Shown piece after piece: positions 31,333-34,623 of a DNA stretch of 64,000 nucleotides. Each line of letters begins with the position of its first letter. The stretch's first letter is position 1. The position numbers and the translations under genes were made by a program. Under the pieces are notes generated by a model that was not told the origin of the DNA, ran no database searches, and saw nothing but the letters and a program-made list of their open reading frames with translations. The DNA is from a virus. Location of the stretch: IMG/VR virus record IMGVR_UViG_3300031857_000005, positions 1-64,000 of that record; one strand, given 5' to 3'.

Positions 31333-31489
31333 TAAAAAACTATCAAAGGAAGAGATTGAAGATATTGAATACCTCCAAAAAAATATAATTAAATCGTTAA
31401 CACTCCCAATACATTTACACGGACTGAAGGAAGATGATGTTGTGGGTGTGAAATCATTGGAAATAACAAAACAAAATAAAGATGAATAA
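31325..31489 (+). CDS. small hypothetical protein, 54 aa
   Basis: MDDKKLSKEEIEDIEYLQKN, then SLTLPIHLHGLKEDDVVGVK. Coupled to thymidylate synthase by an 8-nt overlap. Confidence 0.52.
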   Translation: MDDKKLSKEEIEDIEYLQKNIIKSLTLPIHLHGLKEDDVVGVKSLEITKQNKDE

Positions 31490-32315
31490 AGCCGACAAAT
31501 ATTATATTCAAAATCTACAAAAGATTATATCAGAAGGATCTTGGGATGAAAATCCAAGACCCAAATATTCTGATGGAACACCATCACACTCAAAGTTTAT
31601 AACACAAGTGTTTGAAGAGTATGATATTTTAAAAGGTGAGTTTCCAATTACAACATTAAGGAATACTGCAATCAAAACAGGAATTAAAGAAATACTTTGG
31701 ATATACCAAAAACAAACTTCATCACTTGAGGTTGCTCGTGAATTGGGAATTAACTGGTGGGAAGAATGGAATATTGGTGATAATAGTATTGGGCAAAGAT
31801 ATGGTGCAACAATCAAAAGATACAATTTAATGAATAAATTACTTGATGGGTTAGTTAATGACCCATTTGGTAGGAGACACATTATTAGTATGTATCAGTA
31901 TGTTGATTTAAAAGAAACAAATGGTTTATTTCCTTGTGCATATGAAATCCTTTGTTCCGTTAGAAAGGTAGGTGAAGATAAAGTGTTGGATATGACATTA
32001 ATCCAAAGATCAAACGACTACTTGGTTGCAGGATATATCAACAAGATACAATATTTAGCATTACAAATGATGATTGCAGGACATTGTGGTTATAAGATTG
32101 GTAAGTTTTGTCATCTCGTTCAAAATCTTCATATATATGATAGACATTTTGATGGTGTTTATGAATTATTAAATAGAACACCATTGGAAACAGATTTACC
32201 ATACATTGAGTTAACGGAAAATAAAAACTTCTATGATTATACTATTGACGACTTCAAAGTCCGTAATGTAGATAAAATAACAAAGTTAAGTTCAGAATTG
32301 GAACTTGCAATATAA
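31482..32315 (+). CDS. thyA: thymidylate synthase
   Basis: A 277-aa ThyA that methylates dUMP to dTMP with methylene-tetrahydrofolate. Family landmarks: FPITTLRNTAIKTGIKEILW (about 54-73), DPFGRRHIIS (about 127-136), catalytic Cys in FPCAYEILC (about 147-155), QRSNDYLVAGYINKIQYLALQ (about 172-192) and NLHIYDRH (about 218-225). The usual Asn in the PFN position is Ile-Asn here; the catalytic residues look intact. Supplies dTTP for phage DNA. The DUF3310 kinase-like domain at 2.4 kb would act on its product. Confidence 0.95.
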   Translation: MNKADKYYIQNLQKIISEGSWDENPRPKYSDGTPSHSKFITQVFEEYDILKGEFPITTLRNTAIKTGIKEILWIYQKQTSSLEVARELGINWWEEWNIGDNSIGQRYGATIKRYNLMNKLLDGLVNDPFGRRHIISMYQYVDLKETNGLFPCAYEILCSVRKVGEDKVLDMTLIQRSNDYLVAGYINKIQYLALQMMIAGHCGYKIGKFCHLVQNLHIYDRHFDGVYELLNRTPLETDLPYIELTENKNFYDYTIDDFKVRNVDKITKLSSELELAI

Positions 32316-33867: not shown

Positions 33868-34623
33868 ATGAAAAGAATAGAAAAAATATTATTTAAAATA
33901 ATTGATAAGGAAATTACTAATGTTGACACATACTATAATTCTGGTTCACTTTGGTTAATTTTTACTGATGAGAAAAAGTGGGTTGTTGAATTTACTGACA
34001 GTGGTGTATTATGGTTTAATTATTCTTTTTTTAATGATATTTTTTCTTGGATTGGATTAACTGATAAAAAAGAAGAATACATTAAAAAATGGTTTGAAGA
34101 AAGATTTTTATTTAAACCAAAGGTTGAAGATACCATCCAAAATGGGGTGAAGAACACCAAAATGATAGGAATTTGGAATCAAACTCGTGTTGAAGATACC
34201 ATTCAAAATGGGGTGAAACACACCAGTTGTCTAGAGCTGCGTACCCTAAAAATAGTTGAAGATACCATTCAAAATGGGGTGAAGGACACCCTTCCTTGGT
34301 CAAACAATCCGTTGCAAGCAGTTGAATATACCATTCAAAATGGGGTGAAACACACCTTTAAAGGTAACCTCCGTTTTAACGATAAAGTTGAGGACACCAT
34401 TCAAAATGGGGTGAAGGAAATATATAGCACACTACGACGAACTATTCTTGGGGTTGATGATATCCTTAAAAATGGGATTAAGGAAACCAAAAGTATGGGT
34501 GGAAAAAGAAATGGTAGAGTTGATAATACCATTGAAAATGGGGTAAAACATTGTGAAGATGGTGATTGGTTAGATGGAGACGAAAGAATTGATAAAATTG
34601 TTGAAAATGGTTTGAAAGTATAA
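33868..34623 (+). CDS. open reading frame with N-terminal domain plus eight 22-residue repeats (CRISPR-like array)
   Basis: Residues 1-84 form a compact domain (SLWLIFTDEKKWVVEFTDSGVLWFNYSFF, IKKWFEERFLF). From residue 86 the protein consists of a 12-residue unit V-E-D-T-I-Q-N-G-V-K-x-T alternating with unrelated 10-residue inserts. At the DNA level this is a 36-nt repeat plus 30-nt insert with an exact 66-nt period, so the frame stays open. Repeats 1-5 are nearly identical in DNA, whereas 6-8 diverge mostly by conservative amino acid changes (V/I, E/D, K kept). A repeat protein, an RNA array, or both may be encoded. The N-terminal domain runs directly into the first repeat. Confidence 0.8.
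   Translation: MKRIEKILFKIIDKEITNVDTYYNSGSLWLIFTDEKKWVVEFTDSGVLWFNYSFFNDIFSWIGLTDKKEEYIKKWFEERFLFKPKVEDTIQNGVKNTKMIGIWNQTRVEDTIQNGVKHTSCLELRTLKIVEDTIQNGVKDTLPWSNNPLQAVEYTIQNGVKHTFKGNLRFNDKVEDTIQNGVKEIYSTLRRTILGVDDILKNGIKETKSMGGKRNGRVDNTIENGVKHCEDGDWLDGDERIDKIVENGLKV
34123..34623 (+). repeat. CRISPR-like 36/30-nt interspaced repeat array (8 units)
   Basis: Repeat starts: 34123, 34189, 34255, 34321, 34387, 34453, 34519 and a terminal one at 34588. Each begins GTTGAAGATACC (or close) and contains CAAAATGGGGTGAA, ending in ACACC-like sequence. Inserts at 34159, 34225, 34291, 34357, 34423, 34489 (each 30 nt) and 34555 (33 nt) are unrelated to each other; those at 34225, 34291 and 34423 are 40-47% GC and C-rich, unlike the surrounding gene strand. 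The repeat holds a short hairpin, CCATT-CAA-AATGG. The last repeats decay, as in CRISPR arrays. There is no cas gene nearby and no separate leader, since the upstream sequence is coding. Confidence 0.85.

Follow-up and report, generated by a model that had tools for sequence, protein, structure and literature searches.

Probable CRISPR-adaptation-like uptake of host DNA into the 3' part of a phage protein gene

In a CRISPR array, nearly identical repeats of 23-47 nt alternate with unique inserts that hardly vary in length. An array of similar appearance lies inside an open reading frame of the virus record IMGVR_UViG_3300031857_000005 (304,365 bases), the first 64,000 nucleotides of which, hereafter the window, were analysed here. 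The locus raises the question of whether the repeats encode protein and enclose hypervariable inserts, or whether a guide-like array is hidden in the gene; the two readings could also hold together.

The layout that had been predicted from the letters of the sequence was recovered in the window, with seven repeats of 36 nt starting at position 34123, spaced six times by 66 nt, and with a length of 30 nt for the first six inserts and 33 nt for the seventh; after a last interval of 69 nt, we also identified a truncated eighth repeat (Table 1). No insert of the window array contains an in-frame stop and, as had been claimed, inserts 2, 3 and 5 have a higher GC content than the window (0.30). A 17-mer core of the repeat, ACCATTCAAAATGGGGT, is present in 4 copies in the window versus 0.00 expected from dinucleotide shuffles.

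Table 1. Features of the array gene, in positions of the window
Feature	Position	Strand	Remarks
Whole gene	33868..34623	+	ORF; 251-aa protein, N-terminal domain and repeat array
N-terminal domain	33868..34122	+	85 codons; AlphaFold2, alignment A2
Repeat 1	34123..34158	+	VEDTIQNGVKNT
Insert 1	34159..34188	+	Private to the window's phage
Repeat 2	34189..34224	+	
Insert 2	34225..34254	+	Private to the window's phage; GC 0.40
Repeat 3	34255..34290	+	
Insert 3	34291..34320	+	Private to the window's phage; GC 0.47
Repeat 4	34321..34356	+	
Insert 4	34357..34386	+	Private to the window's phage
Repeat 5	34387..34422	+	
Insert 5	34423..34452	+	YSTLRRTILG; common to other phages, cluster C2; GC 0.43
Repeat 6	34453..34488	+	Decayed
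Insert 6	34489..34518	+	KSMGGKRNGR; common to other phages, cluster C6
Repeat 7	34519..34554	+	Decayed
Insert 7	34555..34587	+	EDGDWLDGDER, 33 nt; widely shared, clusters C0/C12
Truncated repeat 8 and stop codon	34588..34623	+	Repeat at 34588-34620

The same repeat core was found in many large lake phages. A protein search of IMG/VR recovered 20 loci with relatives of the whole gene, and a search of viral contigs with a 26-nt repeat core recovered at least 119 stretches, which after the removal of duplicates corresponded to 77 arrays with 837 units among the matches listed. A shorter pattern taken from the repeat core had no exact match in the GTDB collection. The array is nearly always preceded by the N-terminal domain, with one ORF family in 71 loci, and an identical array of 26 units was present in more than 10 contigs; the arrays are therefore not assembly artefacts. 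Two array genes were observed in tandem within one phage at L015, L043, L062, L091, L096, L109 and L116. Both genes of such a pair have a separate N-terminal domain and array, and the two arrays frequently differ in age.

The length of 736 of the 737 inserts that precede a repeat in the 77 listed arrays is divisible by three and only one of the 737 has an in-frame stop, from which we conclude that the array is translated. Stops in the other two frames were counted in 213/573 and 340/573 inserts, and 573 of the 737 are exactly 30 nt long. For the 53 clusters of inserts that are shared between phages and show differences, omega was estimated at 0.32 (bootstrap 0.23-0.44), as compared to 0.98 and 1.48 for the same clusters in shifted frames. 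Lasting units are retained for their peptide and the protein is kept in frame, such that only units without stops or frameshifts persist. Frame, lengths and omega thus uphold the part of the original prediction that concerned a coding repeat with variable inserts, whereas the guide role suggested next to it found no support. In the repeats of old units, we found no constraint at the DNA level beyond protein coding: synonymous divergence in these repeats is not below that in the inserts, and the upkeep of a hairpin was likewise rejected as a source of constraint, its integrity hardly varying between age classes. Several old inserts show wide conservation at the protein level and look domesticated (clusters C0, C1, C2, C7 and C17), examples of which are EDGDWLDGDER, TLRRTLLG, HDDVYHHKGR and the 81-nt insert TPSGYLGSIEMKGKIVHQ.

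The array continues a folded N-terminal domain, as originally proposed, for which the AlphaFold2 model is confident from residue 1 to about 83 (pLDDT about 90-96) with the predicted fold order H-EEEE-HH. Conserved positions in alignment A2 include W29, I31, T33, W38, E41, L48-W49, N51, F55 and W75. The domain had no match in Pfam, and a Foldseek search of the PDB gave no fold match at E <= 0.001 for the domain and nothing significant for the full model. The repeats are predicted to be disordered, with a pLDDT of about 35 in a model based on an alignment of 36 rows. We infer that the product is a small folded domain followed by a long disordered tail, the peptides of which are continually replaced, and that the N-terminal domain may serve to display this changeable set. 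Identity with a tail tape-measure protein was considered and rejected; the matches were weak, with 25-30% identity, and mostly located inside the repeats.

The inserts fall into 455 clusters, 310 of which were seen once, and singletons located beside good repeats were classified as young. The GC content of the young inserts is 0.389 versus 0.32 in the loci, with values of 0.45/0.38/0.34 at the three codon positions versus 0.41/0.32/0.24 in phage genes, and their amino-acid content is near that of randomly read DNA. GC3 drops with the age of the insert, from 0.332 in singletons through 0.282 to 0.255 in shared diverged inserts, as expected for foreign DNA that adjusts to an AT-rich genome.

Traces of growth are also visible in the repeats. 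Private repeat variants have been copied successively around unrelated inserts (nine in L099, four in L006 and three in L007), and identical repeats account for 10.2% of the adjacent pairs versus 1.9% of the non-adjacent pairs. Identical flanking repeats surround 12% of the singleton inserts versus 0% of the shared diverged inserts; all inserts between identical repeats (32/32) are exactly 30 nt, and those between diverged repeats measure up to 114 nt. In the close relatives L091, L109, L110 and L118, the 5' half of the array and its interior have gained new units, and most of the 3' units are conserved. The mean relative position is 0.37 for singletons versus 0.52 for shared diverged inserts, and singletons make up 45% of the inserts at unit 1 versus 23% in the last four units, a weak 5' polarity of new units. 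Furthermore, the order of the units differs between the relatives L096, L106 and L120 and units have therefore been shuffled too; units are both lost and shuffled between phages.

The main test of the source of the inserts compared 36 young inserts with 396 Bacteroidota genomes at E <= 0.1, and 79 of the 396 genomes were matched as opposed to 3 of 396 with the reversed inserts, most of the 79 genome matches being owed to two rpoB inserts. In an earlier search, 39 other inserts were compared with 295 genomes of the order to which a Paludibacter genome belongs, and full-length matches fell in recognisable genes; the reversed control matched 11 genomes against 13, but with matches of just 19-25 nt. 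A third set, consisting of lower-GC inserts, gave two further source genes. Ten inserts match conserved Bacteroidota chromosomal genes, the names of which were read from translated conserved motifs, in all three phases and with five in the sense direction (leuS in L022, katG in L034, era in L099, rpoB DMPFLEDGTP in L091 and L109, and gltB in L002) and five in antisense (the MoxR-type ATPase gene moxR in L006, rnfB in L101, rpoB VLGWAGEKLG in L049, gatA in L062 and pyk in L121). The source matches are 80-93% identical, the weakest being those to gltB and rnfB (24/30 each), because the true hosts are absent from the genome sample. Distant genomes reveal conserved genes only, and the list of sources is therefore no sign of a preference for essential genes.

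No match to the source inserts was identified in 50,697 phage records, from which planted 30-mers were recovered as a positive control. In 1.08 Mb of phage flanking DNA, 42 inserts had matches at E < 0.05 versus 28 shuffled inserts, which is little or no excess, and there was no full-length match beyond the shuffled level. Searches with exact patterns located the rpoB insert in the viral collection inside arrays only, and the first 20 nt of insert 3 of the window were confined in this collection to the window's phage. None of the four private inserts of the window was traced to a source, two of the four having been in the query. It had been proposed that inserts conserved as protein, with no nucleic-acid matches and no small RNA, would indicate an ordinary repeat protein; the outcome is split, in that the old inserts are conserved as protein and the young ones have nucleic-acid matches. 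One insert, L099:14603-14632 (TATTCAGACGTGATATATCACGTCTCCTAC), is largely palindromic, and a similar palindrome was observed in a genome of the order Bacteroidales (L214), outside long open frames.

We favor the hypothesis that this is a phage protein gene, the 3' part of which probably expands by taking up host DNA in a manner akin to CRISPR adaptation. Each new unit consists of an exact copy of a neighbouring 36-nt repeat and a new 30-nt piece, the pieces that could be identified derive from chromosomal genes of Bacteroidota, irrespective of strand and phase, and the older units are kept by protein-level selection. The copying may be performed by an integrase of the Cas1-Cas2 type, for which the partly palindromic repeat would be the substrate; Cas1-Cas2 copies the repeat together with the foreign piece. 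A search for Cas1 alone did not find it in 16 phage records, possibly including fragments, and no reverse transcriptase was found in 7 phage records. As the phage records yielded none, the integrase is probably the host's own, and host Cas1-Cas2 working in trans is our first guess, at about even odds, with another integrase as the main alternative. Whether each infection can add, by a CRISPR-type integrase, a 10-residue peptide that is read from any strand and frame of the host chromosome, with selection of the useful peptides, seems to us evenly balanced. No protospacer-adjacent motif, including that of Flavobacterium columnare, was identified at the ten source sites, which are homologues and not the true sources. 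In 297 Bacteroidota genomes, no CRISPR-like array with the repeat was found and the matches were isolated and weak; the six that were inspected correspond to unrelated sequence with no repeat array.

How does the array compare with known systems? The targeted renewal of a region of a phage protein is shared with diversity-generating retroelements, where the region that varies is copied with mutations from a template repeat. Here, in contrast, no reverse transcriptase was identified in the 7 records, and the 455 clusters with their many singletons are unrelated foreign pieces and not mutated copies. The palindromic amphipathic repeat coding sequences of the Mollicutes are likewise tandem, palindromic, coding and mobile between genomes, but have a different motif and, as far as the accessible part of that source describes them, no capture of host DNA between the repeats (PMC2996958). 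Close in size, in the start of the repeat and in insert source are the II-C and VI-B arrays of F. columnare, which have 36-bp repeats beginning with GTTGT and inserts near 30 bp, are both served by the II-C Cas1, and in VI-B contain many host-genome spacers (PMC8092290). One F. columnare array thus relies on the integrase of a different locus, and the same might apply to the phage array by analogy. Unlike the F. columnare arrays, the phage array is located inside a protein gene under protein-level selection, no cas1 was found, the polarity is weak, and the ten homologous sites have no protospacer-adjacent motif. The CRISPR arrays of huge phages are compact, usually without Cas1/Cas2, and some of their spacers are directed against host genes, but they are described as CRISPR-Cas loci and arrays and not as a translated gene (PMC7162821); in the translated array, no effector is known and the source strands are mixed.

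We also considered explanations other than CRISPR-type capture. An ordinary repeat protein, in which mutation and recombination diversify the loops, would agree with the frame keeping, the low omega in shared inserts and the exchange of units between phages, but it gives no account of the 30-nt out-of-frame and antisense matches to rpoB, leuS, gatA and pyk, the GC content and codon-position composition of the inserts are unlike those of the phage, and the source test contradicts it, so that we find this explanation hardly credible. Capture by a phage or host recombinase unrelated to Cas1-Cas2 is possible, if somewhat doubtful. The failure to find Cas1 in the 16 phage records and the weak polarity with internal insertions are consistent with such an enzyme, whereas the exact 30-nt ruler combined with the duplication of a 36-nt repeat is a feature for which Cas1-Cas2 is the only system that we know of, and the lack of a reverse transcriptase in the 7 records also argues against it.

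A hidden guide array, the transcript of which would yield processed guides to silence host genes or to engage a Cas effector of the host, is quite improbable. The palindrome CCATT-CAA-AATGG, noted in the original prediction, is indeed present, and together with the dimensions of the array, the host genes rpoB, leuS and gatA among the sources, and the spacers of huge-phage CRISPR arrays against host transcription and translation genes (PMC7162821), it would suit a guide array. However, the guide-RNA reading is disfavored because sense and antisense sources are balanced at 5:5, as RNA the repeat does not exceed shuffled sequences in stability (z = -0.25), and selection acts at the protein level with strict frame keeping. 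Furthermore, the repeat matched no CRISPR repeat in Rfam, Cas1 was not found in the phage records, the sampled Bacteroidota showed no array with a matching repeat, and conserved source genes are over-represented since only those can be recognised in distant genomes. Rather unlikely, in our opinion, is also a spacer sink, in which the repeats mimic CRISPR repeats on which the host Cas1-Cas2 wastes its spacers, while translation is tolerated or maintains transcription. The resemblance to the F. columnare repeats and inserts, including the common GTTG start, the Cas1 that there serves a second array with many host-derived spacers, and the origin of the inserts from both strands of host DNA all favor a sink, but the conservation of diverged inserts as protein would be needless for it, no CRISPR-like arrangement of the repeat was seen in the 297 Bacteroidota genomes, and no insert was traced to a phage. 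A role as a spacer sink may coexist with the protein role.

The near-identical 36-nt repeats, the unique inserts of near-constant length and the duplication of the repeat with each new unit are what a CRISPR array displays, and the array-like half of the original prediction holds at the DNA level, in the copied 36-nt repeat with its new 30-nt insert and in the matches to bacterial genes. The array differs from CRISPR in the lack of an identified cas1, in being a translated gene by the frame, stop and omega tests, and in its sources, which were found to be chromosomal, with none in the phage records, and not mobile elements; it still works like CRISPR at the acquisition step. We know of no system in which a whole CRISPR-like growing array is translated as protein, and no description of a gene of this kind was found in a literature search that lay mostly outside the subscription journals. 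If the array does grow by CRISPR-type capture of host DNA, it would to our knowledge be the first protein gene that evolves by programmed capture of foreign DNA, with CRISPR-type adaptation being used for protein-making and not for memory, and it would provide a record of the bacteria infected by uncultured phages. One would then have to ask if phage genes are served by Cas1-Cas2, and in what way arbitrary DNA gives rise to new peptides.

Some observations concern the surroundings of the arrays. Thymidylate synthase genes are common near them (31482-32315 in the window; L014, L033, L136 and others), and many of the adjacent thymidylate synthases carry LQDILDNGVKK, which is similar to the repeat peptide. 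The idea that the repeat arose from the adjacent thymidylate synthase gene (LQDILDNGVKKE compared with VEDTIQNGVKHT) was rejected as unconvincing, with at best 20/36 identical nucleotides. Among bacteria, the thymidylate synthase of the window has its best relatives in Bacteroidales contigs, in keeping with Bacteroidota hosts. GIY-YIG homing endonuclease look-alikes are frequent near the arrays (L014, L128 and 18 other loci), and in 32 loci (for example L109:2103-2439 in the orientation of the array) the array gene is followed at a short distance by a conserved gene of about 105-120 aa, not assigned to a family, which is a possible partner.
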